NCBI GenBank assembly: GCA_025454925.1 | Contig: JALONM010000001.1 | Span: 1 to 64,000 of the forward strand | DNA from: Cytophagaceae bacterium | GTDB taxonomy: Bacteria > Bacteroidota > Bacteroidia > Cytophagales > Cytophagaceae | Length of the DNA: 64,000 nt | Direction of reading: 5' to 3' | Shown here: positions 10,417-42,025 of the stretch, piece after piece | Layout of the letters: every line of letters begins with the position of its first letter | Position numbering within the stretch: position 1 is the first letter of the stretch | Notes under the pieces: model-generated | The model's database searches: none | Seen by the model: the letters and a program-made list of their open reading frames with translations, nothing else | What the model was told of the DNA's origin: nothing | Translations under genes and position numbers: made by a program

Positions 10417-13400
10417 TTACTTCACAATAATTAATTTCTTGCTGGAAAGTCTTCCTGCCGAATCAGTAAGCTGAAGGGAGTATACCCCCGCCGATTGTTC
10501 GCGGGTATCCAGCGCAAACCCTTGGGCACCTGCTTGAGAGGTTCCTTGCTGCACCACTTTGCCCAAGGCATCTACCAACATCCATTGATACGAACTTCTG
10601 GTTTTATCTCCAAATAATACGAAGGCCTCATCCGTGGCAGGATTCGGAAATAATTGTACCGAAAGAGCCGATTCTAAGGCATCCTCTGTACCATCAACAA
10701 TACTGGAAGATTGTGAACCACGCACATATTTCGCTTGATATATCTCCTTGGTCGTGGCATCTTGAATAAAGACCACGATCCCTAATTTAGCCGTAGGAGG
10801 TAGTGAATTAGACCAGGAATTGTATACGGTAGCCGACGAATCTTTTGCCCAGCTATTGATGGTAATTACCTTTCCAGCAGCAGTAGGCATCATTTTCCTA
10901 ACCACACCATTCATACTATTAATACCGGAGGCAGAATCTTCCACCACCACTGTATGCACAATGACACGGTTAGAAAGTGTGCTATTGTCGGCGTAAGTTA
11001 CTTTCACCCCAACATTTACCTGACCGGTAGTAATGCTCGAATTAATATCGACTTTGAAACGAGCGGTCTCCAAGGCTTTGGAATCGATATCGTCCACATC
11101 GAGTCTGGTTTCCGGCGTTCCTCCGCTATAAGTATTACCATTATAATACGTTCCATCCACAACAGTTCTCGGTACGTTCGATACTCCATAATACAAGACC
11201 CTCGAACTTACCCCCGGATCCACACCATCAACCAATGAGAACGGATCGATGCTTGGGAAAGAGGTATGGTACGAAAGCAGCGCCACATCTGCAGGGCGCG
11301 CAGCTCTCATCGCATCTACCGCAGCATTGGCAGGTGTTGTTTGTGCAGAAACCGAAGAACTTGAATTTGTAAAATGTTCCATTAAAATCATCTTGGTTCT
11401 ATTGCCAATCCACACACTATCGAAAGCAATACCGTCTTTTTGGTTCAATGGGTCATTTACCGCAGAGCTACCAAAAACCAATCGGAAGCGTACCAAACTG
11501 TCGCGCAACGCATACTGCGACAATCCGATTCTTGAAATACCCCAATTCGTATTTTCTCCGGAAAATCCTTGTGCCAATGGATTATTGGAATTCACACCTA
11601 TCAATCCTACAATACCAGACGTATTATACCAATTCAAGCCCTGGCCAATTTGCCCTATGGAATTCCAAGGCTGCATATAACCGGTGGTAGCTTCGAGCAT
11701 GGCACCAGCAAGGTTGGTAGAATTATTCCAGGTCTTCAAAGAAATCATAGGTTTATCCAACGATCTAAAATTAAAACATGGAGAATTTAAATAAGACAAT
11801 TCACCCAGGTTGTAGTTGCCATTTAAATTAGTGATCCAGGTATTGAAGGCAGGGTTAATTACATCTTTACCACTTGGTGTACCCCATGCCCAACTGTAGT
11901 TAGCACCGCTTGGCGCCCAATTCAACCCCGCAGAGCGGAAGGTGGTATCGTATGGATTTGCGTCTGTAATGGTAATGGTAGGTAAAACATAAACTTCCTT
12001 ACGGATCACTTTCTTACAGTTATACAGATTGGTAGTAGCATCCAACTCTACATTATAAATATTCGGACTAGCAAATTTGTAACGAGGATTCAAGGAATTC
12101 GCATTTGTCATTGTCACTCCATTTACTTTGTAGGCTCCGGCGCCATTCATATTCCAGGTGATCGAATTCGAATAGCCTGTAGGAATGGTGGTAAGGTTGG
12201 TGAACACAATGGAATCGACCGAACATGGTCTGTCCCAGGCAAAATTAGTAGCCGGATATGGGCCAAAAATACGAGTAGAATCTTTGGTATTAAAACAATT
12301 GATATTACCCGCACCGTTTACGGAAGTAACTTTCAGTTTAATGTTATGCAATCCATAATTCACAAAAGAGTAGCGTGCAACCGGAGTATTGAGCGACGAC
12401 TGAACTGGAGCAAAAACATTTTGAATCGTATCACTGTCGATCGTCCAATCGTACCGATTGTTTGCTGTGGCAGGATTATTCAGATTGGATATGGTAGCGG
12501 TTTGTGTAAAGGTAATGGTATCCTTTTCACATAAAGTAGAAATGTTAAAATTCACCAATGGATATGGGAACAAGCGGAAAACGGTATCGACATAGTTGAC
12601 ACAACCCTTGGCATCGGCATACGAGTAACGCACAGTGTCTGGCCCACCATTTGGATTGATGGAATAAGAACCTTCGGGATCGTATTTAAACGCACTACCG
12701 AAAGGAACTACATAGGTTCCATTTAGTGCATTTATACCTTCAAAGGAAGCAGAGTTCTTATTTCCCGGTGCCAGGTAAATACTTCCCAAGTTACCGAACA
12801 AGAAAACGGCATCATCATTTCCACAATACTGAATCCTCGTGGCAGGATCAAAATGTGTAATGGGAAGTGGATTTATTTTAATATTAATCCTGGCAGAGTC
12901 TGCCAAACAAGGGCCCGCTGTATCCGGATCTAAGGTAACCAGGTACGCAAACAACGAATCGCCTAGGCCCAATTCACCAGTACCTTCTACTACATTAAAT
13001 CCAGATGAAGTTATAACCCCATCTGGATTATAAGTACCTACCAAGTTTGCAGGTGCAGTAAGGCTAAAGGTTCCCAGACCGTCAAAAGTCTTCCAGGTAT
13101 TATACCCAGCACCTGTTCTGTTGGCACCTCCTATTTTCACGGTACCGTTCAATTGTACCGGTTGATTGGCACAAACTTCAATATCTGCCCCGGCATCTAC
13201 TGTCACATGCGGATTGATTCGTATCCTCATTACGTCGGAAGCGGGAACGCAAGGCCCTCCGTCGTCGGGATCATTGGTAGTGGCCGTAAAATCAATGAAC
13301 AAAGGAACACCTGTTGCATTATCGCCAGGCACAACGGTATAAGTGGTAGTCGCTAATCCTGGGTTTACGATAGTACCTGAACCTGCGTTTTTAGTCCAGG

Positions 13401-16400
13401 TAACTGCGGTAGCAGAACCACCCGCCAAAGAGGCAGTAAGTACCGGGCTGGTGTTGGAGCAATAAGTAGCATCAGCTCCCGCTACTACCACCGGTGCCTG
13501 ATTGATTTTGAATGATGAACTTTGTGTGACTACCTTACATGGACCTGCTCCATCGGGATCATCCGACACCAAATTAAACAACAGCGTAGATCCACCAGCC
13601 TCTGCAGTGGTAGGTGAATACGTTGCATTCTTAGGATTGGTAGTACCTGGCAGGTATGAACTCCAAGGAATTACCCCAGTACCATTCCATGTGGCTCCCA
13701 GATTCCCTCCTCCGAATAAGGTGCAAGTCCCTACCAGATTGATGTTACTACCACCGCAAATGGTATCACCAATGGAAGCAGCAACAACAGCCTCCGGATT
13801 AATGGCAATAGTGATATTCGCGTCTACTGCCGAACAAGGGCCAGTACCATCGGGATCACTTGACTGGACAAAGAATGTGATGCTACCTCCTGTTTTCTCA
13901 CTACCATTGGGAACAAAATCGGTAGATAATTGAGTTGGAGTTAACAAGCCTGTTTGAACATTGGAGGCAATCGGTCCTTTGTACCAGGTAACAGGGGCCG
14001 CTACCAATTTACTAACAGTAGCTTTCAACTCAATTAAATCATTAGAGCAATACACCGGCTTGGTGGATGTGGCTGAAATAGTAGGTAACTCTGTAATGGA
14101 AACAACGGTATCCTTGGTTACCAGGGGGCATCCTTGTGGGCCATCCGGATCAGAAGTGGTAACCCGAAACGTTACACTTCCTCTTGTAATATCCGTTGGA
14201 TGCAACGTATATGTAGGCGTATTACTGGTGTTATTATCAAAAGTTCCCGATGGCAGCGTTACGGTTGACCAAGTCTGAGTAACAGCAGGCCCAGTTTTCT
14301 GCAATTTATTCAAACTGATGGTTTGATTGGAACAAACCGTATTGTATTGACCAATATTTACTGAAACCGGAGGATTCACAGCTAAGATATATGGTGCCGA
14401 CGCATCACTCACACAGGTGTTATATTTGTATTGCTTCATGAAATAAGTCTCATCGGAGCTGATTAGACCACGGGGAAAATAAGCAAAGTTGGTAAATGTA
14501 GGATAGTAATTATCGGAGAAAACCGGTGGGTTATTAGGGAAATCTCTACTCCATTGCATCGTCATGCCAACTCCTTGCACCACATTGGCCACCGCGTAAG
14601 TACCTTGGTTGCTGCAAAACGTATATGGAAATGTTTGACCTACGAAATAACCCACTCCATTGTATGGTGTGGGCGTGCTCGGCTTTAGGGCAACAGGTAC
14701 ATTTTTAGTGATGGTATTGCTGCACCCAGAAACGTTATCTACAAAGGTTAATGAAATAGGCTTGCCTACAGAATCTAACACCGCTCCGGCTGCATTCCAA
14801 TTTGCAAAATAATTGGGAGAGCTGAAGGTAACAAAACCAGTTACCGTAGAAGAAAATGTCGCTGTACCCGAGGCTCCGTTAGCAGTGTAGGTAAGCTGAG
14901 TGGTAGGAAAATCAGAGCAAACAACCGTTGGAAAACTATTGGTAATACTTATAGTCGGTCGAGGATAAATAGTAGTTGTTTGAGAAGGAGAAAATCTTGT
15001 GCTTAAGAATATAAAGGTTGAAGAATATGAATATCTGAATAAACGAGTGCCGGCACCTAGTGTGGAAGGAGAAAGTGTATAGGAATAACGAGTAGTCGTT
15101 CCGAAAATACAAGATCCCTGAGGAGTGGTAGATGCAGGAATCATAGGATTCCAGGTAGCTCCATTATCAGCAGAATATTCCATGCCAATATAAGCTGTGC
15201 AACCAAAGAAACACGAAGCACAAAAATCCACATAAATGGTTGAATTCGCGTCGTATTCGCAATATTTGGTATTTATATTTTGAATGGCTCCTGCCGACAC
15301 TCCAGTACCCACCACAAACGATTTATCTGTTGTACTTTCACAACCTGATCCATCCACAAAGTGATAGGTAATTAAATGGGTTCCATCGCCCGCTACATTC
15401 GGATAAAAGTAATAACGATCATCTCCTGAATCATATATCACTCCCGGCCCAGTAAAGTAGGATGGCGAACCGGTACTCCGGTTGGCTTCTTCTGCTGGGG
15501 TCCCCAACGTATCGAGCCAAAAACCTGGGTCTGAAGAGGAGAAAGTATTCTTCGTAGGATTGAATGTAGGTGCGGCTGGTAGTGAATTGATAACAATGTT
15601 TTGTTGTGAAGAATTTGCTTTACAACCATTGGTGGCGGTACCTTCTATGTAAATAACATCTCCATTATTAAGGGTACTGGTTGTATAGGGACTTGATGAA
15701 CTCAACAATGTTGGGCCGCTGGTTTTAAATATCTGATACGTATTGGCGCCATAGCCAGTGAATGTAATATCATCATTCGTACAAACCACACCATCGTTCA
15801 TAAAGTTACCTCCTGTTTCTTCTGTTATCATGGTTACTATAGGGGCCGCATTTACGTCAATCGAAATGTTTCTGGTAAAGGCACAAGTAGGTGAATTGGT
15901 ATTTACAGTATACACCACATTGTTCGTACCTACCGTTGCGGCAGAAGGGTTAAAATTCGATCCAGATACTCCTGGTGATCCGGAATACCCTTGAGGACCT
16001 GAGCTTACACCAGTGCCTAAGGTAAAAGAGCCCCCTAAAGGAAATGGTAATTCATTGTTACACTTGGCAGTAACCGTAGAGAAATTGATAGAGGATAAGG
16101 CTGATTGCACCTGAAAAGCGGTGGTTCCATTGGAAATACCAGCAATGGCACTTGAACCTGGCGCAAACACAAAGTTCCCGGTAGCACCCGAAACGCTGGC
16201 AGCCCTAATCCGAATGTTTGAAATGCCAAATGCGTCTATTTGATTGTTGTTGTTTATTTCGTATCCTATGGCCAGAGTAGAAGCCGTAATGAATAATACG
16301 CTATTGATTGCAAAATTATTAGGCGAATTATTGGTAAAGCCAATCGGACTGCTCGGATCGAATTCAAATCCGGAAGGAGCAGCAATGAGCAATATTTTCC

Positions 16401-16563
16401 CCGCACCTATACTAAAATCCCCCACAGCACTTTCCGTTATCACAACATCATTTATCGTAGTATACGATTGAGTACAGACTCTTGCAGATATGCCGTTGAA
16501 CGAAGCCGCTGAGGCAACGAAAAACGAGAACAATCCAATAGAAGCACGAACTAAATATTTCAT
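10417..16563 (-). CDS. Giant T9SS type A surface protein with tandem Ig-like modules and Omp28-like domain
   Basis: About 2,048 residues from the ATG at 16563, which starts a normal signal peptide (MKYLVRASIGLFSFFVASAA). A longer frame from 16692 would put 43 odd residues before it. The middle has at least five tandem modules of about 98 residues, each with an early cysteine (YCSN/VCAN type) and a DPDG-x-GPC motif, suggesting one disulfide per module. Near the end, after NRTKMILMEHFTNSSSS, is a region like the Omp28 thioredoxin-fold family, but the usual cysteines are absent. The last ~75 residues form a T9SS type A sorting domain (LFPNPATDEAF..., SAGVYSLQL). It is probably exported by the T9SS and surface-bound. 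An adhesin role is inference. It forms its own transcription unit, ending at the terminator near 10350. Confidence 0.85.
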   Translation of the reverse strand: MKYLVRASIGLFSFFVASAASFNGISARVCTQSYTTINDVVITESAVGDFSIGAGKILLIAAPSGFEFDPSSPIGFTNNSPNNFAINSVLFITASTLAIGYEINNNNQIDAFGISNIRIRAASVSGATGNFVFAPGSSAIAGISNGTTAFQVQSALSSINFSTVTAKCNNELPFPLGGSFTLGTGVSSGPQGYSGSPGVSGSNFNPSAATVGTNNVVYTVNTNSPTCAFTRNISIDVNAAPIVTMITEETGGNFMNDGVVCTNDDITFTGYGANTYQIFKTSGPTLLSSSSPYTTSTLNNGDVIYIEGTATNGCKANSSQQNIVINSLPAAPTFNPTKNTFSSSDPGFWLDTLGTPAEEANRSTGSPSYFTGPGVIYDSGDDRYYFYPNVAGDGTHLITYHFVDGSGCESTTDKSFVVGTGVSAGAIQNINTKYCEYDANSTIYVDFCASCFFGCTAYIGMEYSADNGATWNPMIPASTTPQGSCIFGTTTRYSYTLSPSTLGAGTRLFRYSYSSTFIFLSTRFSPSQTTTIYPRPTISITNSFPTVVCSDFPTTQLTYTANGASGTATFSSTVTGFVTFSSPNYFANWNAAGAVLDSVGKPISLTFVDNVSGCSNTITKNVPVALKPSTPTPYNGVGYFVGQTFPYTFCSNQGTYAVANVVQGVGMTMQWSRDFPNNPPVFSDNYYPTFTNFAYFPRGLISSDETYFMKQYKYNTCVSDASAPYILAVNPPVSVNIGQYNTVCSNQTISLNKLQKTGPAVTQTWSTVTLPSGTFDNNTSNTPTYTLHPTDITRGSVTFRVTTSDPDGPQGCPLVTKDTVVSITELPTISATSTKPVYCSNDLIELKATVSKLVAAPVTWYKGPIASNVQTGLLTPTQLSTDFVPNGSEKTGGSITFFVQSSDPDGTGPCSAVDANITIAINPEAVVAASIGDTICGGSNINLVGTCTLFGGGNLGATWNGTGVIPWSSYLPGTTNPKNATYSPTTAEAGGSTLLFNLVSDDPDGAGPCKVVTQSSSFKINQAPVVVAGADATYCSNTSPVLTASLAGGSATAVTWTKNAGSGTIVNPGLATTTYTVVPGDNATGVPLFIDFTATTNDPDDGGPCVPASDVMRIRINPHVTVDAGADIEVCANQPVQLNGTVKIGGANRTGAGYNTWKTFDGLGTFSLTAPANLVGTYNPDGVITSSGFNVVEGTGELGLGDSLFAYLVTLDPDTAGPCLADSARINIKINPLPITHFDPATRIQYCGNDDAVFLFGNLGSIYLAPGNKNSASFEGINALNGTYVVPFGSAFKYDPEGSYSINPNGGPDTVRYSYADAKGCVNYVDTVFRLFPYPLVNFNISTLCEKDTITFTQTATISNLNNPATANNRYDWTIDSDTIQNVFAPVQSSLNTPVARYSFVNYGLHNIKLKVTSVNGAGNINCFNTKDSTRIFGPYPATNFAWDRPCSVDSIVFTNLTTIPTGYSNSITWNMNGAGAYKVNGVTMTNANSLNPRYKFASPNIYNVELDATTNLYNCKKVIRKEVYVLPTITITDANPYDTTFRSAGLNWAPSGANYSWAWGTPSGKDVINPAFNTWITNLNGNYNLGELSYLNSPCFNFRSLDKPMISLKTWNNSTNLAGAMLEATTGYMQPWNSIGQIGQGLNWYNTSGIVGLIGVNSNNPLAQGFSGENTNWGISRIGLSQYALRDSLVRFRLVFGSSAVNDPLNQKDGIAFDSVWIGNRTKMILMEHFTNSSSSVSAQTTPANAAVDAMRAARPADVALLSYHTSFPSIDPFSLVDGVDPGVSSRVLYYGVSNVPRTVVDGTYYNGNTYSGGTPETRLDVDDIDSKALETARFKVDINSSITTGQVNVGVKVTYADNSTLSNRVIVHTVVVEDSASGINSMNGVVRKMMPTAAGKVITINSWAKDSSATVYNSWSNSLPPTAKLGIVVFIQDATTKEIYQAKYVRGSQSSSIVDGTEDALESALSVQLFPNPATDEAFVLFGDKTRSSYQWMLVDALGKVVQQGTSQAGAQGFALDTREQSAGVYSLQLTDSAGRLSSKKLIIVK

Positions 16564-30400: not shown

Positions 30401-31197
30401 GTAACCAAAAAGGGGATATTCCCGATCAATAATAACCCGCGAACGGACAGAAGAATGGAAAACACCAGCACTATACTAAGGCCCTGATAGCCTAACAACA
30501 GGCAATTCTGAACGATCTTTGACAAAAAAAACATCAGAAAAAACAAGCCCGCCAACCCTAACACACTTACCCATACACGGGTAGAAATGGTTATTTCCTG
30601 AGGTAGATTTTCAAAGTTTACAGAAAACAAATAAGCTCCATCATCGCTCCTTACTTCAAAGGAGGATAGTGTATGAAAATTATTGATTTCAATATCATGC
30701 CAATCGAAAAATCGTACATTCAAACCTGACTCCAGATAATTATTTTCGATAGGGTAGGAAGTTTTTAATAAAATGGCGCTAACCACATTGAGGGTGTCGC
30801 CCTTCACGAGGTAATCTCTTTTTACCAGCAAATAGAGACCTGTTGAATGAATTTTGAAAAGATATTTATTGACATTTTCGTATCGCTCCGGAATGAAGCG
30901 ATGATCTGACCAATACAATAATTCTTTATTTTTATAACACGCCAATGGAAATTGATATTCATCGTCCATTTGAGAAATAGCACTAGGAATAGACGTTTGA
31001 TACTTAAGTATTAGCGCAGTTTGCTCTTGATTGGTTTGCTCTATGGCTTTGCTGATCGACTCTTGTATCGATTGAGCATAGGCTTCGTGGTCCCGTTTGC
31101 TTTTAGGCAAGGATTGCCACCACCATACCAGTGCTGCGGAACCGAGCAGCAGGATAGCGATAAATAAAATTCTAACTAGTACTCTTTGTTGATTCAT
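27496..31197 (-). CDS. Very large NtrY-like sensor histidine kinase
   Basis: The 1,233 residues include an N-terminal membrane helix, a periplasmic region, a block of about eight helices, a second long extracytoplasmic region, and further helices. A HAMP domain follows (near LTEPLKLLTHKI), then a HisKA domain with the phospho-accepting His1024 in the motif HEIKNPLTPMK, and a HATPase domain with N-box NLIINAF, DNGSGI and GSGIGLAV. The HEIKNPLTPMK form is typical of NtrY-like kinases. Typical kinases are 400-700 residues; here the N-terminal sensor part is unusually large. No response-regulator gene lies nearby, so it is an orphan kinase in this window. Its operon partner is the large outer-membrane protein 2 bases downstream. 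Confidence 0.9.
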   Translation of the reverse strand: MNQQRVLVRILFIAILLLGSAALVWWWQSLPKSKRDHEAYAQSIQESISKAIEQTNQEQTALILKYQTSIPSAISQMDDEYQFPLACYKNKELLYWSDHRFIPERYENVNKYLFKIHSTGLYLLVKRDYLVKGDTLNVVSAILLKTSYPIENNYLESGLNVRFFDWHDIEINNFHTLSSFEVRSDDGAYLFSVNFENLPQEITISTRVWVSVLGLAGLFFLMFFLSKIVQNCLLLGYQGLSIVLVFSILLSVRGLLLIGNIPFLVTELALFDPRFFASSALAPSMGDFFLNALLTAFFFWFLLKHYANIAWVKMIFHLQIQYRYLAILICGLMLFLGSGYMLHLFEVLFGSSQNSLDITRNIEMNWFKVFGLLSFVLIGASYFIFNHIFFRILVLLGKDVWHLKWLGVLTMALGYLLNSMIWDADWVLYVLQVLFFFILHYYRIPYHLSRVNYSTYLYFLLVAFFCSFLAAHGLYVQTNATMIAEKQKYATQLLSENDHFGEYLLFEASKRIAEDKFLLNRFKNPFLSKDVISQKIKKKHLPDYLDKYDPLISVFDEQGNAYIGHGEYKTYSEALELFRKDVYKTEYKGIYFLNEKGESPLKRYVSLVEMYDAGYLVGYVVIELTHKRTVSNSVYPELLVDKKFIQPSHNKEFLYSIFREKEILVSSGNFNYYKFFSPQNLKNPALYEDGIVINDFHHLGYKTENGKVIVISSPAYFLRYAFSNFSFLLVVLVFFVLLFLVINAFYFRSKGIYLNYSTKIQLYLNISFFLPLILVSIVLLTLIGSGYREALTASFLQKAESLSANINAHLEDYAEDSLLLSKLEDEVTQLARSTDTDINLYSSQGDLIYSYHPAIYSTELLSTKINTQAYTNLVEQNFNEILLNESVGKLKYNVVYMAVRSYNSRELLGIVSIPFFEAKQEFQDQLIGILTTILNIFASVFVLFLFMAWLASKVLTEPLKLLTHKISKTTFGGNQPLEWKTRDEIGLLVNEYNSMLVKLEDSKAALSRSEKESAWREMAKQVAHEIKNPLTPMKLTIQHIQRGWKEHPERMEEKTKLALDSLLNQVNILSEIASSFSAFAKMPIPKSERIEVGEVLRNTVLLYNNNHEFSVTLKADWTIGYPCMGDAELLSAIMTNLIINAFQSVPVDRTPQISVHLFVENTWLTITVSDNGSGISEEIREKVFLPNFSTKDSGSGIGLAVAKRGIEHAGGKIWFETQKNEGTTFYIQLPLIG

Positions 31198-31305: not shown

Positions 31306-31343
31306 AAACAAAAAAGTAAGACCCGAATGGTATCTTACTTTTT
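31306..31343 (-). terminator. Terminator of the TIR/STAND operon
   Basis: On the minus strand AAAAAGTAAGA (31343-31333) pairs with TCTTACTTTTT (31321-31311) and continues into a T-rich tail. It follows the stop codon at 31374 by about 30 bases and ends the five-gene operon. Confidence 0.85.
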
Positions 31344-31373: not shown

Positions 31374-32666
31374 TTATTTCACATTGGAAAGTTCACCATC
31401 GGCATTTAGTTTAATAAGCGCCAGCACCGATGAGCGTCCAGAGTTATCGTTGTTGTTACCAAAGTCAATCGTTCCGCAGATGACATACCCATTATCAGAA
31501 GTTTGTTTTACGGCCGCAGCTACATCGTCACCAACACCCCCAAACGTTTTTTTCCATTCTTCGTCGCCGTTTGCATTAACTTTAATAACAAGCAAATCGC
31601 GTTTCTTTTCCGGCGCACCAATATACGCTTCGTTATCAGTAGTTCCCAACAGCACAAATCCACCATCGTTGGTTTTGCAAATAGCCACCCCGCGTTCTCT
31701 GCTATTGGATTCGCCAAATTTGCGAATGGTTCCCTTTACATTAATATTCTGATCGAGTTGCAACAAATACATATCCTGATCGGATGCTATTCCTGAGGTG
31801 ACTGTGTAGGTAGTACCTACCATGGCAAATTGATCGCCCCCAGCCTGAATAATTTCTGCCGCAGCACCAAGTGTAGCATCATTAAAGTTATTGTTGGTGG
31901 GCGCATAGTTGTGTAGCAATAAATCTCCATTCAAAATAAACCTAACAACACGGGGAGTAAAATTAGCACCAATCTTTGTACTGCTGGCCATAATGTATTC
32001 ATCCGTCGATGAAACGGCCAATCGCCCGGGAATATCGTCTTCCACATCGTTTCCATACAAGAAATCGGAACTATCGATGCGTGCCAAATTCTGATTGACC
32101 ATCACGGCAAACAAGTCGTACTTCCTGGAACTATCCACCGTTCCACAAAGCATATACCCACCATTCACGTTTTGAACATCGTACCCTGCCGCACCAATTT
32201 TAATTCTTCCCGGAGCACTAAATAAGCCTTTATAATTGTACAAGGCCTGACGCGTAATATCCCCGGAAGCATTGAGTTTATAGGCCACTAATGCCGTGGA
32301 ATCATTTCGGGGATCGAATACATTGGATTTGTAGGAATAGGTTCCCACGACTATGTATCCACCATCCGGACTCACTTCAATACCACCAGCATAATCGTCG
32401 TTGGCACCGCCTAGGGTTTTGTGCCATTCTTCATTGCCATATACATCTGTTTTAATAACAATCAAATCTGAGCCTCCGTTGCCGGAAGTTTCTGTGGTAC
32501 CCAGAAGGACATAGCCCCCATCGGCAGCTATGGCCATGTCTACTGCATTATCCTTTTCGATACCCCCGTAATATTTAATAAAGGCACTGGATAATTCTAC
32601 ATCTTTCTTTTTACAGGCCATTACTCCTGCTACAAACAGTAGTAATAACATTAAACGAGCTTTCAT
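31374..32666 (-). CDS. Lipoprotein with DGGYVLLGTT-type propeller repeats
   Basis: The ATG at 32666 opens a lipoprotein signal (MKARLMLLLLFVAGVMACKKK, lipobox VMAC); a Met seven codons upstream would overlap the preceding gene. The body has repeats of the form DGGYVLLGTTET...SDLIVIKTD.GNEEWHKTLGG..DD, seen most clearly near both ends, for example DGGFVLLGTTDN and NGYVICGTIDF. Such repeats are common in secreted Bacteroidota proteins and probably form a beta propeller. It is the last gene of the five-gene operon. A role as outer-membrane or surface partner of that operon's barrel protein is inference. Confidence 0.8.
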   Translation of the reverse strand: MKARLMLLLLFVAGVMACKKKDVELSSAFIKYYGGIEKDNAVDMAIAADGGYVLLGTTETSGNGGSDLIVIKTDVYGNEEWHKTLGGANDDYAGGIEVSPDGGYIVVGTYSYKSNVFDPRNDSTALVAYKLNASGDITRQALYNYKGLFSAPGRIKIGAAGYDVQNVNGGYMLCGTVDSSRKYDLFAVMVNQNLARIDSSDFLYGNDVEDDIPGRLAVSSTDEYIMASSTKIGANFTPRVVRFILNGDLLLHNYAPTNNNFNDATLGAAAEIIQAGGDQFAMVGTTYTVTSGIASDQDMYLLQLDQNINVKGTIRKFGESNSRERGVAICKTNDGGFVLLGTTDNEAYIGAPEKKRDLLVIKVNANGDEEWKKTFGGVGDDVAAAVKQTSDNGYVICGTIDFGNNNDNSGRSSVLALIKLNADGELSNVK

Positions 32667-32679
32667 GCCGTGTATCGGG

Positions 32680-33747
32680 TTATTCAAAGTCTTTAATTTT
32701 ATTCTTTTTAGGCTTATAGAAGGATTTAAAATATCCTACAGAAAAAGCAAGATTGTTCACTGAGAAATCACTACTGATATACCCATGATAAAATAAACTT
32801 CTTCCATCTTCGCTCAGGAAGCGATTATCGGCATTGGCCAAATTATTCAATCCAAACTGATAGCGTGCTTCCAAACAAATATAGCCAAATCCTACTTTGT
32901 ACCGGAAGCCTGCCCCCAAAAGTGCGTTGGTTCCCAGCTTACGGCGTTGTTTTCCAAAATTCAAACTTTCCTGGTTGGCTGCACTAGACTCGTCAGTATT
33001 TACTCGACTTAAACGCGATGTTGCGGAAATCAACCAATTATTGGAAACACCTGCCAGGGCATACGGTTTTATTTTTTTATTCCCCAGCACATACTTCAAT
33101 GCCAAAGGCATATCCAGCCACATCTGATTTTCCCGTGAAGTGAGTGTTGTATAATTGCTGTATAGAAGTTCTTTAGAGTAGGTAAACTGTTTTAAATTCC
33201 AAATAAAGCCGGTGTTCAATTGCCAGTTCTTATATAACAAAATATCGGCTAAAACACCCAACTGGAATCCGAGCCTGGATGTATAGTCAGCTTTACCGTT
33301 ATCTAAACTATTGACCGTATAAGATTTTCGTTCTGTGACACCCGTTCGATTCACTCCGCCTAAAATACCAATGCTGATAACCGGTAGGGTTCTGTACTGA
33401 CGAAATAATTGATAAAACTCAGCCGGGTCTATGGCCGGATTCAAAGTATATTCCGGATCTTCATGCAATAATTCCAAGAGTTGTTTTTCCGCCTTTTGAT
33501 GTTCATCCTGAAATAAGAAACTCAGAATGAGCAAGCGCAAAGCCTGCATTTTTTCTTCTTTAGTAAATCCCTCCTTGATACATTCTTTCAATAAAGGTTC
33601 CACTTCAGAAATTTTTCCCGCATCGTATACTTTCTGTGCCCGGTTTAATTTCTGGGTACAGGTAAGTGCGGAATCTCCAATCAATCCGGCCCTACTGGTA
33701 AAAGCCAGTAGCAGAAAGGAAAAGAAGGCCAGCAATGTTAGTTTCAT
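32680..33747 (-). CDS. Outer-membrane protein: helical repeat domain plus beta barrel
   Basis: A signal peptide (to about residue 20) is followed by a helical, TPR-like segment (about 30-110: LNRAQKVYDAGKISEVEPLL, FLFQDEHQKAEKQLLELL). Residues 120-345 show the alternating strands of an outer-membrane barrel (PVISIGILGGVNRTG, LGFQLGVLADILLY, LDMPLALKYVLG, LLGAGFRYKVGFGYICLEARYQF). It lies 19 bases after the STAND gene and 13 before the lipoprotein gene. The periplasmic helical part could link inner-membrane partners to the barrel. That is inference; the family is unnamed to my knowledge. Confidence 0.75.
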   Translation of the reverse strand: MKLTLLAFFSFLLLAFTSRAGLIGDSALTCTQKLNRAQKVYDAGKISEVEPLLKECIKEGFTKEEKMQALRLLILSFLFQDEHQKAEKQLLELLHEDPEYTLNPAIDPAEFYQLFRQYRTLPVISIGILGGVNRTGVTERKSYTVNSLDNGKADYTSRLGFQLGVLADILLYKNWQLNTGFIWNLKQFTYSKELLYSNYTTLTSRENQMWLDMPLALKYVLGNKKIKPYALAGVSNNWLISATSRLSRVNTDESSAANQESLNFGKQRRKLGTNALLGAGFRYKVGFGYICLEARYQFGLNNLANADNRFLSEDGRSLFYHGYISSDFSVNNLAFSVGYFKSFYKPKKNKIKDFE

Positions 33748-33766
33748 GATACCTTAAACATCTTTT

Positions 33767-36700
33767 TTAATACAATTCTTCCTTCACAAACTCACTGCTT
33801 GGAAGCTGATCACAGGTTTTTTCATACTGAATATCATCGGCCACATATCGTTTCCATTCTTTACCTGTCATATTTCTATTTACTTTATTGCATATCTGAT
33901 CAGACATATGTTCCATGCTTGTCGGCCAAACGCGAATTAAATTATCAACGCATCCTGCCAACAACTTGGTGCCATCCGGACTGAAACCAACTGACCACAC
34001 CCACATTTCATGATCGCGCAAGATCAATGGCTCTTCGTCGAGATTTGTAAAATCCCACAAACGAACTGTGTGATCAAAACTTGCCGTAGCCATAAGTTTA
34101 CCGTCTTTGCTAAAGCGAATATCGTTGATTCGCGCTTTGTGGTCTGTTAATACGGCGATCAACTTCGACTCCTGGAGATTGTATACTTTTACAATTCCCA
34201 ACTCGTCTCCGGATACAACGTATTTTCCATCGCTGCTGAAGGCTACGCTGTGTACTACCTTTCCTTTATGGTCTATAATGGCTTGATCTGAATTTGAATT
34301 TCTGTCAATCAAAATCACTTGACCTTTTTCAGAAGCAACCGCCAGATGTTTACCATCTGGTGACAATTTAACCTGCTTTAATCTGGATTTACCTTTGTAC
34401 ACTACTTTGGATTTTTGTTCTGATAAATCCCAATAAAGCACCGTACTATCGGCACCTGCAGAATAGAGGCCTTTGTTATCGGAAGTGAAGCAAACGGACC
34501 AAACGGCCCCTCGGTGTCCTCTCAACTGCAATGGAACAGCTGGATTAGAAAGATCAAATAACTGAATATAGCTTACATCGCTGCAGGCTGCCAGGTATTT
34601 TTCATCGGGGCTGACATCAATGGCGCGATAAACAAAGCCATGACTAAAAACAGGTACAGGTGTTTTCACGGTTTTGCTCATGTCCCAACGTAAAATTTTG
34701 CCATCGCTTCCAGCAGTAAATAAATCGCGTCCATCTTTCGAGTATACAATGGATCGAATAGCATCGCTATGACCTACCATGGCGTTGTACTCCTCCTTCT
34801 CGAGGTATTTAACAGCAAAATACAAGCCTTCGTAAATATCGTGGTTATGTTTCTTACCACCGTTTCCGGTATGGAACCTGAACGCTTGTTGCGCCAGCAA
34901 TGCTTTGCGGGATGTATCCGTAAGCGAAACCGATTTAACGGCCATAGACTTGGCGATGGAAAGTAATCGCTGATTCAAGGCTTCCTTCGTTTTCTGTTCA
35001 GCAATTTTTGTTTGTTCAATGGCCTTTGCTTCGTTTTGCTTAGCGATATCCGCATTCTGCCGTGCGATATCCGCATTTCGGTCGGCGAGGGCTTTGGCCT
35101 GTCGAGCGATCTCGGCTTGGTTTTCGGCTTCTTTTTTAGCCAACTCCGCTTTTTCTTTTTCTTTCAGGGCGATTCCTTTTTGTCGCTCAGCTTCTTCCAA
35201 AGCCTCTAAGGCTTTGGCTTCGGAGCGTTTGGCTTTGGCTTCAGAGCGTTTGGCGTTTGCTTCCGATTCTTTCGCATTTTTTTCAGCAATCAACGCGGCA
35301 ATTTTCGCATTTTCCGCCTCTACCTTTTGCGTTAAGGCCCAGATTCCTAAACCTATTGCAAACACCGCGGCCACAGCCATGATCAAGGCAAACATACGCG
35401 TACGCTTAAGCGTGCGGCGCTGCATCATTTCCTTGATGCGCTGTTCCGTTTCAAAGGCCTTTTTAGAGGTCTCCAAAAACACGATGGCTCTTTCGAATGC
35501 CGGGTCGTATCGTTGGGCCCAATCAAGGGTCGGCTTATTTTTTTCATACCAGTTTACCCCTACCTGAAGATCGGGTGGTCTCCACAAACCCGTTTTACCT
35601 TGTTGATACATGTAGGCTGCCTCAGAAAGTCGCAGATACATTTGAACTGCTTCACTTTCCTCCTCTACCCACATTTTAAGTCGGGTCCAGATCCTCATCA
35701 AGGACTCGTGGGAAATATCAACTACGGTATTGGAACTCAATGGAATGCCTGGTGGTGGCATCAACAGCGAGCGGCCTGGCTTGCGAAAAGCCTCCACCAC
35801 GCTTACCAACTCCGCCTCTGGCACATTGGCAATAGAGGCGATGGTACCCAGGCGTGTGGGTCTGCGAACACCATGCGCACTTTCTGCACTTTTCTCCGTC
35901 AAGGCCTTAAACATTACCTGGCAAATTTCCTTTTGCTTTTCGGTAAGTTCATCGTAAGCCTCGTTGGCATGCATCGAAAGCGCTTCTGCCATGCGACCAA
36001 TAGCCTCATAATGCGGCAAATCAATTGGTTCGCCGTCTTCGTGATGCTCTGCCCAATACGTCCAGGTTCGCATAAGGGAGTGCTGCATAATCGGCAACTG
36101 ATCCGGATTATCACCAAGATCATTAAGCAACTGCTGCAATAATCTTGGAGAAACTTTAGAACCACCCACTGCCACAGGACCAACTATGGCCAAACGCTTT
36201 TGTTCCCTCGTCATCTGAGGGATCAGGTAATGACTATCGTTTATGAATTTTGTTAAATCGGGAAACTGGGCGCAATCACCGATAAAATCGGAACGCATGG
36301 TGATGGCCACATAAATTGAAGAATCCTTCTGACGAATCGCTTCCGACAACAAATTCACAAACGCAAGCGACTCGTTGATACCTGTCCCTTCCTCCATTCT
36401 GCGGAATCTGAATAATTCCTCAAACTGGTCAATCAGAATCAATACATTTTGCGTCAGGCTGGACTTGGTTTGGGCAACGGCTTCCACCAAGCCTAAAGAA
36501 CTGCTTCGAAGTAAGGTAGAAACTATTTTTCGGCGAACTTTTTTCTCATCGGCATCCGCCACCACATAATCTACATTACTGCGAAGCAAGGCTTCCCCAA
36601 GGTTTTCTATCGGAGAGTTACCTGGTCTGGCAACTACCACATTCCAGTTGGAACCGGTATTGGTAGAAAACCCTCCATATAAAATCGGAATTACACCGCA

Positions 36701-36964
36701 ATATAAAAACGATGACTTACCACTTCCAGAAGCTCCAATCACACCCACGAACTTATTGTTCACCAGCTTCATGAGTACTTCATCGCTCTGTCCTTCCCGT
36801 CCGAAAAACAAATGACTCTCTTCCGTATCGAAAGGACGTAAACCTGGGAACGGATTAGGAAATTGCTGCAAGCGCTTTTCCTTTTTCAGTTCTCGCTCGG
36901 TCTTGGGAAGAGTTTCTGTAATCGTCTCCTGCCCTGTATTAACTTTGGTTGTCACCTCACTCAT
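33767..36964 (-). CDS. nSTAND1 NTPase with TM helix, coiled coil and seven-blade WD40 propeller
   Basis: Residues 37-500 form a STAND NTPase of the nSTAND1 type: NPFPGLRPFDTEESHLFFGR entry motif, Walker A GASGSGKS (77-84), Walker B LILIDQFEE (175-183), then DISHESLMRIW (416-426). One membrane helix follows (525-545), then a ~130-residue coiled coil rich in Ala/Lys/Glu/Gln heptads. The C-terminal ~310 residues hold seven WD40 repeats, enough for a closed propeller. STAND proteins are signal-sensing NTPases that assemble on ligand binding; WD40 domains usually sense or bind the partner. It lies 5 bases after the TIR protein gene. Because of the TM helix, NTPase and propeller should face opposite sides of the inner membrane unless the helix is not inserted. 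The repeated coiled-coil coding DNA gives long false frames on the other strand. Confidence 0.9.
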   Translation of the reverse strand: MSEVTTKVNTGQETITETLPKTERELKKEKRLQQFPNPFPGLRPFDTEESHLFFGREGQSDEVLMKLVNNKFVGVIGASGSGKSSFLYCGVIPILYGGFSTNTGSNWNVVVARPGNSPIENLGEALLRSNVDYVVADADEKKVRRKIVSTLLRSSSLGLVEAVAQTKSSLTQNVLILIDQFEELFRFRRMEEGTGINESLAFVNLLSEAIRQKDSSIYVAITMRSDFIGDCAQFPDLTKFINDSHYLIPQMTREQKRLAIVGPVAVGGSKVSPRLLQQLLNDLGDNPDQLPIMQHSLMRTWTYWAEHHEDGEPIDLPHYEAIGRMAEALSMHANEAYDELTEKQKEICQVMFKALTEKSAESAHGVRRPTRLGTIASIANVPEAELVSVVEAFRKPGRSLLMPPPGIPLSSNTVVDISHESLMRIWTRLKMWVEEESEAVQMYLRLSEAAYMYQQGKTGLWRPPDLQVGVNWYEKNKPTLDWAQRYDPAFERAIVFLETSKKAFETEQRIKEMMQRRTLKRTRMFALIMAVAAVFAIGLGIWALTQKVEAENAKIAALIAEKNAKESEANAKRSEAKAKRSEAKALEALEEAERQKGIALKEKEKAELAKKEAENQAEIARQAKALADRNADIARQNADIAKQNEAKAIEQTKIAEQKTKEALNQRLLSIAKSMAVKSVSLTDTSRKALLAQQAFRFHTGNGGKKHNHDIYEGLYFAVKYLEKEEYNAMVGHSDAIRSIVYSKDGRDLFTAGSDGKILRWDMSKTVKTPVPVFSHGFVYRAIDVSPDEKYLAACSDVSYIQLFDLSNPAVPLQLRGHRGAVWSVCFTSDNKGLYSAGADSTVLYWDLSEQKSKVVYKGKSRLKQVKLSPDGKHLAVASEKGQVILIDRNSNSDQAIIDHKGKVVHSVAFSSDGKYVVSGDELGIVKVYNLQESKLIAVLTDHKARINDIRFSKDGKLMATASFDHTVRLWDFTNLDEEPLILRDHEMWVWSVGFSPDGTKLLAGCVDNLIRVWPTSMEHMSDQICNKVNRNMTGKEWKRYVADDIQYEKTCDQLPSSEFVKEELY

Positions 36965-36969
36965 AGATC

Positions 36970-38451
36970 TTATACTTTAGAAGTGAAAGGTCTTAGTACT
37001 TCTGATAGAAACTCATTCTTATTGTGCATCACCTCAAAGCCATTTTGTTTGAGGAACATTTGGTCGTGCAATTTGGCTCCTTTTTCAACAAATACAGCTT
37101 TGCATTTCATTGTTTTGATGCGTCCAAATCCGGGTGATTTAAGTACATCGTGAGCTTTACTATTCACCCATTTCTCGCTAACCTTACTCATGTAAATGAT
37201 GGCTGCATCGCAACGATTAAGATGCAATTGATGCAGCTGCCGAGCCTCTAAAATAGTTCCTGTAAGCTCAGGAACGATCACCTCATACCCAGAAACTGAC
37301 AAATGATCGGCGAGTTTCTTAGCCTCATCGCGGTCCATTTTATCACAAATCAGGTACACTTGCTGCTTTTCATTGTTTGATTCTGATTGTAGAATCACTT
37401 TTGAATTTGCTCGTGTATTAATTTCGTAAAGTTCGTTGCGAATGATGTTTTTCAACTCTTCCAAAGGTATGGAAAGCACTTCGGCTCCCGCCACCATTTG
37501 AGCATCGCGCTTGAAATTTTCAATGAATAATTTTTGCTGCTCATCCGATACTTTGGAATCGGGTGGGATCCAAATAAAGCGAGGGAAAGCCAAATGATCT
37601 TTTCCAACTTGCTGATTTTTCCAAACGGAATGAGCCGCTGCCACTTTATTCTGCACAGTGGGCAGCGACTTTACCTGCTCTCCGTCCTTATTATAGGCAG
37701 ATCCACTAATAAAATGTATGGAAAGCTTGCAACGTTCCAAATCCGATTTGATGACCTCTTCCAGGTTGGAAGACTCAACATTCAGGTATTGATTGGGAAG
37801 AATGTTGTATCCATGCCGTTGAAGTTCCCTGCGAATAACGTCGCGTTGAATAGCTAGGTCGCGAGGAGGATTAGCCAAGTAAATGTATTCATCGGCACCT
37901 TCCACCGTTAGCACCTCTTCTTTTTTCTTGCCACGTGCTTCCATGATCAAATCATACAATTCATGAGCAAGATCTACCAAGCGCAACCAATACGTACCTT
38001 CTACCTCATTGTTAAAAAAATCATTTATTTCGACACTCTCTCCCGTTTCCAGATTAATGCCGAATAAATTATATCCAATCAGTTCCCTGAATCCATCGGG
38101 CTGCTCAGTAGTAGGCACATAGGTCTTCAATACTTTGAAAACCCTGTGTTGATTCTGCATCTGAAGTTTACCCGCATGGAGCAGTTCTCTGTAAAATCCT
38201 TCCGATTCTTTAACACATGGAACCGTAGTAACATAAGCGGGTGATAGAATAGAAATTAATGCGATGGCTTTATCCGACATGCCTGGATTATTCTTCCCAT
38301 CCGAAATCAGGATAGAAGGTTTTTGGCCCATTAACTGAGTTAACAAGCGATCCAAGAAACGATGGAAGCTCGATACCCATCCAGGCTGCTGGTCGGCAGA
38401 GACGTCATCATTGGGATGATAGCTTATTAGAATATCGTATTCGTATGGCAT
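36970..38451 (-). CDS. TIR-domain protein with three TIR-like modules
   Basis: Module 1 (residues 4-130) starts YDILISYHPNDD and contains a SILSPAYVTTVPCVKESEGF segment, like the 'SPNYL.S.WC..E' part of TIR domains; Glu82 (or Glu84) is where the catalytic NADase glutamate would be. Module 2 (about 187-300) and module 3 (about 364-465: VYLICDKMDRDEAKKLADHL, CDAAIIYMS) have the same alternating pattern but lack a clear catalytic glutamate. TIR domains are protein-interaction modules, and in bacteria many cleave NAD+ or make signalling nucleotides in defence. It has no signal peptide, so it is cytoplasmic. It lies between the transporter/HEAT gene (18 bases) and the STAND gene (5 bases). Module 1 is a confident TIR; the others are a weaker reading. 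Confidence 0.75.
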   Translation of the reverse strand: MPYEYDILISYHPNDDVSADQQPGWVSSFHRFLDRLLTQLMGQKPSILISDGKNNPGMSDKAIALISILSPAYVTTVPCVKESEGFYRELLHAGKLQMQNQHRVFKVLKTYVPTTEQPDGFRELIGYNLFGINLETGESVEINDFFNNEVEGTYWLRLVDLAHELYDLIMEARGKKKEEVLTVEGADEYIYLANPPRDLAIQRDVIRRELQRHGYNILPNQYLNVESSNLEEVIKSDLERCKLSIHFISGSAYNKDGEQVKSLPTVQNKVAAAHSVWKNQQVGKDHLAFPRFIWIPPDSKVSDEQQKLFIENFKRDAQMVAGAEVLSIPLEELKNIIRNELYEINTRANSKVILQSESNNEKQQVYLICDKMDRDEAKKLADHLSVSGYEVIVPELTGTILEARQLHQLHLNRCDAAIIYMSKVSEKWVNSKAHDVLKSPGFGRIKTMKCKAVFVEKGAKLHDQMFLKQNGFEVMHNKNEFLSEVLRPFTSKV

Positions 38452-38469
38452 ACGTGTTGTTTTTTGCGC

Positions 38470-41400
38470 TTATGATTTTCTTAAATCAAGTAATTCTTCA
38501 GCCAGGTGATCATGTTCCAAAACTGTTCTATGTTCCACAAACCCAGCAATTACTCCTTCTGTCATTTCATGCGATTGCGACATCAATTCATAGAAATGAT
38601 CCTTTTCTATTTTATATAACACGCAATCCTCTATCACCACTACATCGTATTGATACAAATCGGTTTCCAGCACTAAATTTTCTCCTACCAAATCTCCACG
38701 CACCAATCTGGCTATGGTTTGATTTCCATCCCGTACTTCAAGCAAGCCGGTTTGGACAGCGTAGATAGGAGCATTGCCTTTGGCTCCGAATTGCAATACT
38801 GTATCTCCTCTGCGAAACTTTACTTCCGAAACCGACTGCGCGATATTGGCTATTAATACTCCGGGGATGGTAGAAAGAGCCTTCACTTCTTTAAGAAAAA
38901 GTACCTTTTCGTAAATCAAATGCTTCCGATTGGATTCATCGTCTTGCGTGAGCATGATAAAATCGAGCTCACGTTTAATTTCAGGATCAATCCGTTTAGT
39001 ACTTTCATGATAACTAACCCGATCTAAGGTATACATGGCATACGCGGCGATTTCGCGAAGCAAGGGATCCGGGTTGAACAAGTTGGCTACTATATCGTTG
39101 GTAAGCAAGGCACCAGGCATTTTCAAATACCGATACATGGCACAGGCTTTCGTCCATCGGTTTATCGAGTTATAATCCTGATTAATTATTTCCATGAGTA
39201 TAGTCACCTGATCGAAACGCTCGCGTAAATAATATTCCTGAAGCCGATTGATTTTTTCCTGAACAGGCAATTCATCCAGCAAGGGGAAAAGAACAGGTTT
39301 CAATTCTTCTGCCACAAACACATTGAGCAACTCAATTGCATACAATACCCCTTCCGAAGTACGGCTCTCAATATTCTGGCGCACGAGCTGAATCGAATTC
39401 GGATCGTATACGAGCGACAACAACATGAAAATATCGTTGTCGTTTTTCTCAATTTCTTCCACAATGGCCATTTTTAATGGCAAAACATCGTCGTCATTTC
39501 CAACTTCCGCATAGGCTGCAATAAGCCAGGCAGAGTTACCAATCTCTTGCTCGATGGTTTGCAAAATCCTCAGGGCTTTTGATCCCTCGGCCTGAAAGCG
39601 GCATCCCGAAAGAGAAAGCAGCACTTGATTCACAACCCTTCGATCGGGAAAGTCAATTTTATTCCATAAAAATGCTACCACCTTTTCTCCACCAAATCGG
39701 CCATACATCTGAATAATCTTTAACATCACCTCAATGGTTTGTCCGGATTTATAAAAGGTAGACTCAAGCGATGGGATGATGGATTCACCAATAGAATACA
39801 ACGAAGCCGCAGCTATATTGCCAAATAGCGGTGAGGAAAGATTTTCAAGAAGTAGTGGAAAAAATTCCTGCCTTCTGGTTTTACCGGCAGATACCAAGGC
39901 AGCAGACTTTACTTTGGTGTTTGGATCGCGCATCAGGTCTATGAGCACCTGAATATTGGTATCGTCTATAATTTTATGAATAAGCTTGGCAGCCAAAAAC
40001 CGATCATTCCAATCGAGGGATTTGGCAAGTTTGTACATACGATGATTAGAGATGGCCAATGTTTCGGCTTCATTTAGTTTTTCAATGGCCTCGTTGGCAA
40101 TTCTTTTTATTTCAGGAGAATCATCCAATTTGATTACATTCCTCAAGGTTGAGATGGAAGCAATGGCTCTATGTTCCGTGAGTTTTTGTATGGCGTAAGA
40201 ACGAATCCGCGGCGATGGATCATAGACCAATTCGTCGGATTGAACTTCCAACATCACTGGTTCTATGCGCTCCATAAGTTTGAGTGTATAAATAATCTTA
40301 TCAGGCTCATGACACTGCAATTCTTTCTTCATTACATTAATCGGAGAATATTCTTTTCGCTCAAACGACAATCTGTTTTTTTGCTTATTCAAGGATTCCA
40401 GCAAGGTGAACTGATAGGACTCAAATAACTTAATGGCTGTAACAAAATAAAAGACACTAATTAGTACAGTTGAAGCACAAATGACCACCTCGCGATTTTG
40501 AGCCAATGCATCTCCAGGCATCAACTGGTAAATTCCAAATAGCACCAATCCGGCAAATGCCCAGGCCAACTGCTTAAACACGCCTTCAATACTGGTTTGT
40601 ATATTATGTCTTACAAAGGAATCGATTGGAAGGAAGAAGTTTTTAAGAATAGGATCTTCGAAGGTATCTTTCGTTAAGGAGAGAAATAATTTCCCACCCG
40701 CAATGCACACAAAAAAGAGCATGGTGCCCCCAATATCTTGCCGGGTTACCTTATCGTAAATCACACGTATTCCCCAGAAATTTCCGATGATGGCCGCCAT
40801 CAAAAAAAAGATAGAAATCAACACCGGCAAAACAACGATTGAAATTTTAACACCAAACTTTTCTATGATTTTATCCCCTGCAAAAATCTGCATGGCGAAT
40901 GATAAAATTGTGAGTGCTCCTCCGTAGAAACCAAGAAAATAAGTCAGGTCCTCTGTTTTTTCGAACGCAGCAGATGAGGCACTCAGGAAAGAATATTCTA
41001 CGAAAAGAGTAATGAGCACCGCAACAAGAAACATAAATCCCAGCAGCCGAATGTATTTATTTTTGATAAAATTATCACCCTCTCCTCTTCTGGTATCCTG
41101 AGAAACCAACGTAGAAAGTTGCTGTGTTCTATGTTTAACAACAAAGTACGATTGCAGAAACAATGCAACGATGGCCGCTCCGGTACTGTAAAAAAAGTAA
41201 TGCTTGGTAGGAACGTTGGTAAAGGCAAAAGTTACCAGGAAGAATGCTAAGGAAGTGGCAAACAAAAATCCTAAATCCACCGTTCCTGTAATTCGTTTTT
41301 CCTGTTTCAAGGTAAACGCTCTGGAAACAGTACCATAAAAGCCCAGGAGGGTTAAGGCATTTAAAGGACCTAACAAGGCGAACGAATACAACAATAATAA

Positions 41401-41793
41401 TTCTGGTGTAATAATTTTTACTGGTGTCAATTCTCCATGCACTTCGGCTTGCACTATTTGCTCGCCCGCCATTTGAAAAGAATAGGTAAGGAAAGCTGTA
41501 AGCAACATGAGTGAAAACTGAGTAATCACCGATAGTTTATCAAATGATACTTTGCGTTGAAGAAATGCAAAAATGACGGTAACAAAAATTCCTAAACCAC
41601 CGGAAAGCATAATGCCAATAGCAATAGAATCTTCACCGTGTACTTTTACGTACTGGTCGAGGAAGAGTGTGTTTACCGCTACATCATAAGTCACCAGAAA
41701 AGCTCCCTGGAAAAAAGATATCAGAAGTAATATATACACCTGTCCCTCTTCGGATGAATCTATATCCAGCAGTTTTCTAAGAAATGCTCTCAT
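38470..41793 (-). CDS. 12-TM nucleotide-transporter-like protein fused to HEAT repeats and a cNMP-binding-like domain
   Basis: Residues 1-450 hold twelve hydrophobic helices with the look of the NTT (ATP/ADP translocase) or MFS-type fold. Residues ~480-950 are HEAT-like helical repeats (SPRIRSYAIQKLTEHRAIAS, NTKVKSAALVSAGKTRR). Residues ~985-1090 are a cyclic-nucleotide-binding-like beta roll (VSEVKFRRGDTVLQFG..., LVRGDLVGENLVLETDLY, VLYKIEKDHFYELM). In that roll the phosphate-binding segment VGENLVLETDLYQYD lacks the arginine found in cAMP-binding CAP and PKA domains, so its ligand may differ. NTT-HEAT fusions are known in bacteria. It is the first gene of the operon, with a palindrome about 45 bases before the start. 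NTT versus MFS needs a profile search. Confidence 0.8.
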   Translation of the reverse strand: MRAFLRKLLDIDSSEEGQVYILLLISFFQGAFLVTYDVAVNTLFLDQYVKVHGEDSIAIGIMLSGGLGIFVTVIFAFLQRKVSFDKLSVITQFSLMLLTAFLTYSFQMAGEQIVQAEVHGELTPVKIITPELLLLYSFALLGPLNALTLLGFYGTVSRAFTLKQEKRITGTVDLGFLFATSLAFFLVTFAFTNVPTKHYFFYSTGAAIVALFLQSYFVVKHRTQQLSTLVSQDTRRGEGDNFIKNKYIRLLGFMFLVAVLITLFVEYSFLSASSAAFEKTEDLTYFLGFYGGALTILSFAMQIFAGDKIIEKFGVKISIVVLPVLISIFFLMAAIIGNFWGIRVIYDKVTRQDIGGTMLFFVCIAGGKLFLSLTKDTFEDPILKNFFLPIDSFVRHNIQTSIEGVFKQLAWAFAGLVLFGIYQLMPGDALAQNREVVICASTVLISVFYFVTAIKLFESYQFTLLESLNKQKNRLSFERKEYSPINVMKKELQCHEPDKIIYTLKLMERIEPVMLEVQSDELVYDPSPRIRSYAIQKLTEHRAIASISTLRNVIKLDDSPEIKRIANEAIEKLNEAETLAISNHRMYKLAKSLDWNDRFLAAKLIHKIIDDTNIQVLIDLMRDPNTKVKSAALVSAGKTRRQEFFPLLLENLSSPLFGNIAAASLYSIGESIIPSLESTFYKSGQTIEVMLKIIQMYGRFGGEKVVAFLWNKIDFPDRRVVNQVLLSLSGCRFQAEGSKALRILQTIEQEIGNSAWLIAAYAEVGNDDDVLPLKMAIVEEIEKNDNDIFMLLSLVYDPNSIQLVRQNIESRTSEGVLYAIELLNVFVAEELKPVLFPLLDELPVQEKINRLQEYYLRERFDQVTILMEIINQDYNSINRWTKACAMYRYLKMPGALLTNDIVANLFNPDPLLREIAAYAMYTLDRVSYHESTKRIDPEIKRELDFIMLTQDDESNRKHLIYEKVLFLKEVKALSTIPGVLIANIAQSVSEVKFRRGDTVLQFGAKGNAPIYAVQTGLLEVRDGNQTIARLVRGDLVGENLVLETDLYQYDVVVIEDCVLYKIEKDHFYELMSQSHEMTEGVIAGFVEHRTVLEHDHLAEELLDLRKS

Positions 41794-41837
41794 GTCTGAT
41801 AAAAATACAAAAGGAATTAAGGCAATTGTATGGCTAA

Positions 41838-41860
41838 TTTAATGATTTTAAATCATTAAA
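41838..41860. promoter_or_regulatory. Perfect palindrome upstream of the TIR/STAND operon
   Basis: TTTAATGATTT (41838-41848), one T, then AAATCATTAAA (41850-41860): two 11-base arms with a single central base. It lies 44 bases before the start codon at 41793. It holds almost no G or C, so it is not a terminator. A dimeric repressor or activator site is the likely reading. Confidence 0.5.
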
Positions 41861-41997: not shown

Positions 41998-42025
41998 AAG
42001 CCAGGCAGATAGTTTCGCCTGGCTT
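41998..42025 (-). terminator. Terminator of bioB
   Basis: AAGCCAGGC (41998-42006) pairs with GCCTGGCTT (42017-42025). On the minus strand a T7 run follows. It lies 23 bases after the stop codon at 42049. Confidence 0.9.

Follow-up and report, generated by a model that had tools for sequence, protein, structure and literature searches.

What does a bacterium do with an operon that joins a nucleotide translocator, a TIR protein, a STAND NTPase, an outer-membrane barrel and a lipoprotein? The question is raised by a 64,000-nucleotide stretch from a Cytophagaceae bacterium (assembly GCA_025454925.1, contig JALONM010000001.1, positions 1 to 64,000), referred to here as the window. Our preferred reading, to which we assign a probability of about 0.5, is that the operon is a trans-envelope surface-sensing system of Cytophagales, in which a signal would run from a giant surface protein (F), the barrel (D) and the lipoprotein (E) through the STAND protein (C) and the TIR protein (B) to the translocator-type protein (A).

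Re-reading of the open reading frames (ORFs) confirmed what an earlier note on this DNA had described, namely five minus-strand genes separated by 18, 5, 19 and 13 bases, with one palindrome upstream and one terminator at the end. Gene A (38470..41793) encodes an NTT-type ATP/ADP translocator fused to a HEAT array and a degenerate cyclic-nucleotide-binding-like domain, gene B (36970..38451) three tandem TIR/DNPH1-like domains, and gene C (33767..36964) an nSTAND1 NTPase followed by a transmembrane (TM) helix, a coiled coil and WD40 repeats. Gene D (32680..33747) encodes a protein with a signal peptide, a helical N-terminal domain with a Cys pair and an outer-membrane β-barrel, and gene E (31374..32666) a lipoprotein with delta-60/SBBP-like propeller repeats. 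The listed ORF of gene E, with a TTG start, extends to 32687; the ATG at 32666 is its most likely start. A terminator-like hairpin on the minus strand (31311..31343; 11-bp stem, then T) follows E. A second one on the same strand (41998..42025), between bioB and A, sets A apart from the upstream gene; bioB and a fumarate-reductase/succinate-dehydrogenase-like flavoprotein gene lie upstream of the operon. The exact palindrome TTTAATGATTT-T-AAATCATTAAA (41838..41860, 23 bases) is located 44 bases 5' of the ATG of gene A, and a shuffled window is expected to contain 0.01 matches to it when up to 3 mismatches are allowed. It is possibly an operator upstream of A; because it occurs as a single copy genome-wide at up to 2 mismatches, a role as regulon mark was ruled out.

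A scan of GTDB contigs yielded 182 relatives, and 80 loci were retained to count gene order. Nearly all of these are labelled as Cytophagales families or Bacteroidetes, and one as Rickettsiales. Genes A, B and C are adjacent in 76 of the 80 loci, normally followed by D and E, so that TIR and STAND genes regularly occur together elsewhere; the median gaps are 18 (A-B), 4 (B-C), 3 (C-D) and -4 (D-E) bases. Since this adjacency is kept at 33-64% identity of B across the compared loci, with flanks that are unconserved beyond genus or family, the gene order is strongly conserved, far beyond chance, which supports the earlier proposal of one conserved unit spanning both membranes. When 40 loci were read in whole genomes, A, B, C and D were found in order in 35, three had an isolated B homolog with none of A, C and D close by, and no A was detected in two. 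Within the order, 60 of 390 genomes, from 29 of 129 genera, contain relatives of B, and all strong B matches among 296 genomes of the phylum come from this same order.

Of 24 splits, 13 are common to the A+B+C+D tree and the rpoB tree (shuffles: mean 0.14, maximum 2). The operon tree thus largely follows rpoB, and inheritance is mostly vertical. The deeper branches of both trees disagree, and therefore some transfer or poor resolution remains. Flanking genes are common to loci within genera, partly within one family and hardly across families.

These patterns bear on the idea of an anti-phage or conflict system, in which D, E and F would detect phage, the STAND protein would assemble, and TIR and NTT effectors would drain NAD or ATP. 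STAND and TIR modules are indeed common in predicted conflict systems (PMC8195603; PMC7159879), and an NTT could export nucleotides. However, none of the five proteins has a PADLOC match of note, the mostly vertical inheritance and the flanks shared within genera argue against such a role, and the catalytic Glu of the TIR domains is not kept (see below). PADLOC gave few matches among 88 flanking proteins (methyltransferase, mad2 and similar; raw counts without a baseline flank set). The commonest, to the MotB-like ZorB model (9 of the 88), probably reflects shared OmpA-type domains. Without a clear cluster among these few matches, again as raw counts without a baseline flank set, a defence island was rejected. 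We give the conflict system a small chance; rather than defending against phage, the operon probably works as a surface-sensing switch.

Protein A consists of an NTT domain (residues 1-476; 40366-41793, minus strand), a HEAT array (residues 484-987; HEAT_2 match) and a degenerate cNMP-binding-like domain (residues 989-1073; 38575-38829, minus strand; cNMP_binding match). When its TM profile was compared with solved structures, CpNTT1 and AtNTT1 were the only PDB matches (E=5e-17 and 1e-13). The AF2 model (pLDDT 85) matches AtNTT1 with a Z-score of 34.7, clear of the next MFS family at 25.9, and in the profile alignment A lines up with CpNTT1 and AtNTT1 at the FWG, K-R and P-x-D positions. Judged by profile and modelled fold, the 12-TM carrier domain is a true NTT. 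A search of its own genome with the Pfam TLC model (PF03219) gave no match; as an argument against an NTT, this is overturned by profile and structure. Profiles and AF2 folds likewise bear out the NTT, TIR and STAND assignments made earlier for A, B and C.

A true NTT would also suit extracellular nucleotide uptake or sensing, with D as channel, E and F as substrate binders, A as importer of ATP or NAD, and B and C as regulators, and the aligned NTT motif positions favor it. Against it, the outer-membrane part is a TonB receptor in variant loci, the size of the ATPase C and its long rod exceed what uptake would need, and F is a giant Ig-like protein. We consider this alternative unlikely, albeit with a modest chance of being correct.

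At the C-terminal end of A, no conserved phosphate-binding cassette arginine is present at positions 1046-1052 in 45 sequences, and cNMP sensing by A was rejected on this residue conservation. The PycTIR model of PADLOC and PycTIR in the PDB match the cNBD-like domain weakly. NTT-HEAT-cNBD genes of other lineages were also observed near response-regulator-like genes (L191, 16875-17921; L192, 10025-11071), which resemble the SpoIIE-carrying one in locus L183.

The three TIR/DNPH1-like domains of B comprise residues 2-173, 187-345 and 360-493 (AF2 pLDDT 83). The model matches the folds of SPARTA TIR, MyD88, DNPH1 and RRS1 TIR with Z-scores of 12-13, and TIR_2 was matched in the profile scan (E=2.4e-6); comparison of the B profile with solved structures gave no convincing match. 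The catalytic Glu of TIR domains is found four residues after a Trp, as in SARM1. At the corresponding positions of B, as set by motif and alignment and not by superposition, the first domain is variable (position 82), the second carries Gln (Q267) in 74 of 77 sequences and Glu in 3, and the third carries Lys (K432) in 77 of 77. By this alignment, B has no conserved catalytic Glu in any of its domains, which fits an adaptor role, and catalytic TIR signaling by B was rejected on these grounds. The suggestion of a nucleotide signal produced by the TIR protein and read by the cNMP domain is therefore not supported on either side, with neither a conserved catalytic Glu nor the phosphate-binding Arg of the cNMP domain in place.

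Protein C combines an nSTAND1 NTPase (35597-36853; E=2e-94), one TM helix (35333-35389), an alanine-heptad coiled coil (34961-35338), a WD40 propeller identified by profile match (about 33920-34786) and a C-terminal Cys pair (C1025/C1051), all encoded on the minus strand. The Walker A and B motifs are kept in the alignment (GxSGSGKSS and DQFEELF). In the window, the coiled coil counts 18 unbroken Ala heptads, or 126 residues, which at 0.15 nm per residue gives a predicted length of about 19 nm. The TM helix shows a positive-inside bias in 69 of 69 orthologs, with a net charge of +4.4 before and +0.1 after it, and this bias places the N-terminus at the predicted inside. The Cys pair in the tail is present in all 69 orthologs at a spacing of 25-29, and exactly two Cys follow the TM helix in 51; as a lone conserved pair, it fits a periplasmic disulphide. 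The single TM helix, the Ala-heptad rod and the tail Cys pair together suggest that the WD40 end is probably periplasmic.

At the outer membrane, D matches OMP_b-brl_2 in the profile scan (E=3e-14). For E, a lipobox Cys is present in the sequence and a simple lipobox pattern fits 48 of 67 orthologs; partial matches to LipL53 and delta-60 are below cut-off. The earlier gene set missed F: a very long same-strand ORF is found behind E in 63 of the 64 loci that can be read past E, and 50 of these ORFs are at least 1000 aa long within the available locus. In ten genomes F could be read through, with lengths of 1525-4054 aa; all ten proteins contain an Omp28-like region and carry a type IX sorting tail. 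The F region of G533 contains runs of N, and the start of F is uncertain there. Ig-like, PKD and fn3 domains were detected by Pfam in the F proteins scanned.

In the window, the likely F gene is displaced. It encodes a 2048-aa surface protein with an Omp28-like region and a Por_Secre_tail (10417..16563, minus strand), 14.8 kb beyond E on the same strand. An HMM of the F C-termini from ten other genomes, which excludes the window protein, matches it with E=1e-92 over 418 columns, and among the five family members in the genome it scores highest (306 versus 271, 247, 224 and 204 bits). Based on this sequence similarity it is likely, though not certainly, orthologous to F of the relatives. The position directly behind E, where relatives carry F, is occupied by a gene for an unusually large 1233-aa multi-TM histidine kinase (27496-31197). 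Another gene (24083-27493), near an outer-membrane barrel gene (23116-23895), encodes a 1136-aa protein with no Pfam match at 1e-5.

The position of F behind E in nearly all readable loci raises the alternative that the operon is machinery for mounting or driving F, as an adhesin assembly or gliding module that resembles sprCDBF of Flavobacterium in layout, with C as its ATP-using inner-membrane part. Cytophagales, to which the hosts belong, is an order known for gliding, and D shows weak matches, below cut-off, to PorT/SprT as well as to TssQ. Nevertheless, D belongs to OMP_b-brl_2 and has no PorP/SprF match in the profile scan, the TonB-receptor variants described below showed no neighboring F, and the TIR and cNBD-like parts suggest a regulatory role. 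We hold this alternative to be improbable.

Which part of the operon is invariant was examined with A and C profiles run over the same 296 phylum genomes, counting strong full-length matches. Eight genomes carry full-length A, and the same eight carry full-length C in matching copy number: two of each in four genomes and one of each in the other four. Such identical sets have a chance of 8e-16 if independent, a figure made optimistic by genome relatedness. The window genome carries a second A-B-C-D set. Second copies in three of the eight genomes (G049, G146 and G186) lack B and read A-C-D-E; a long ORF comes next, and the one that was scanned is of PKD/Ig type. In loci L183 and L185 from other orders and L186 from another family of the same order, the sequence is C, a large outer-membrane protein, a small acetyltransferase-like protein (called by eye), A, and a Reg_prop/Y_Y_Y protein whose C-terminal domain is a histidine kinase or SpoIIE; in L183 the large outer-membrane protein is a TonB-dependent receptor and an RR-SpoIIE phosphatase follows. 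The matched occurrence of A and C and these variants with other partners identify the NTT-STAND pair as the invariant core, with exchangeable outer-membrane and cytoplasmic partners. A different two-STAND system is conserved in genomes that are distant from each other within the phylum (L179, 9109-19664; L181; L195) and comprises a TIR protein of ~532 aa, two tandem nSTAND1-like proteins of ~1350 aa and a 268-aa multi-TM protein.

Taken as a whole, the earlier interpretation stands for the conserved two-membrane unit and its NTT, STAND and TIR members, is not supported for the nucleotide signal, and overlooked F and the NTT-STAND core. For surface sensing, the order kept in 76 of 80 loci, the presence of F behind E and its T9SS tail with Ig-like, PKD or fn3 domains in the genomes examined, the topology of C (one TM helix, charge bias, Cys pair), the co-occurrence of A and C with variant partners that all belong to signaling families, the lack of a conserved catalytic Glu in B and the splits shared with rpoB all count in favor. 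Against it count that F here is one of a five-member family and not adjacent, that a histidine kinase gene lies next to E, and that the periplasmic placement of the WD40 end is a prediction. In the proposed mechanism, the giant T9SS-secreted F would be held at the cell surface by D and E, and a change there would reach C at its periplasmic WD40 propeller. The ~19-nm coiled coil would transmit the signal across the inner membrane, and the nSTAND1 ATPase would then assemble or switch. B, as a TIR adaptor without catalysis, would link C to the cytoplasmic HEAT/cNBD-like portion of A. The NTT domain of A would respond with altered nucleotide exchange or serve as a nucleotide-sensing membrane output. 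Computation establishes the gene linkage, the protein families and the A-C partnership, and also that the usual residues for catalysis and ligand binding are missing; the topology and coil length of C are predictions. From these we infer which way the signal runs, that the proteins form a complex and what A does, and the direction could be reversed.

A similar layout is known from sprCDBF of Flavobacterium, where a giant T9SS surface protein is encoded together with outer-membrane proteins; that locus is not known to include STAND, TIR or NTT, and D belongs to a different barrel family. Fusions of NTT with HEAT, or with HEAT and cNBD, are known, and the parts of the source consulted list NTTs from Bacteroidetes and state that NTT-HEAT-cNBD proteins are broadly conserved, with cyanobacteria and Chlamydia among the carriers, and that how the fused domains work together functionally is not known (Major et al. 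2017, PMC5381601). A has the same domain order, but those parts report no STAND, TIR or outer-membrane partner, whereas A is tied here to a specific STAND protein (PMC5381601). As in nSTAND1/TIR conflict systems (PMC8195603; PMC7159879), an nSTAND1 NTPase is encoded near a TIR protein; here, in contrast, the STAND protein is predicted to span the inner membrane, the TIR protein has no conserved catalytic Glu, the partners are envelope and T9SS proteins, and inheritance is mostly vertical. The cNMP-sensing TIR effectors of Pycsar resemble the cNBD-like domain of A through the weak PycTIR matches, but cNBD and TIR are on separate proteins here, the cNBD Arg and the TIR Glu are not kept, and no cyclase was seen in the operon.

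No description of the operon was found in open-licence PMC papers, a set that leaves subscription literature mostly outside, and the portions of that literature consulted on STAND, WD40 and periplasmic proteins contained no such system. The STAND and TIR families and the NTT-HEAT-cNBD architecture are already known; the gene combination and the envelope-spanning STAND topology appear to be new. More tentatively than for surface sensing itself, we propose a new class of trans-envelope receptor, in which a giant T9SS surface protein would be coupled to an NTT-family protein by a STAND ATPase that carries a membrane-crossing rod and a periplasmic propeller, via a non-catalytic triple-TIR adaptor. 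If true, a STAND NTPase would receive signals from the cell surface and not from inside the cell, and TIR domains would be used as adaptors in bacteria. For one branch of the NTT-HEAT-cNBD proteins, a fixed STAND partner with matching presence and copy number provides a testable context.
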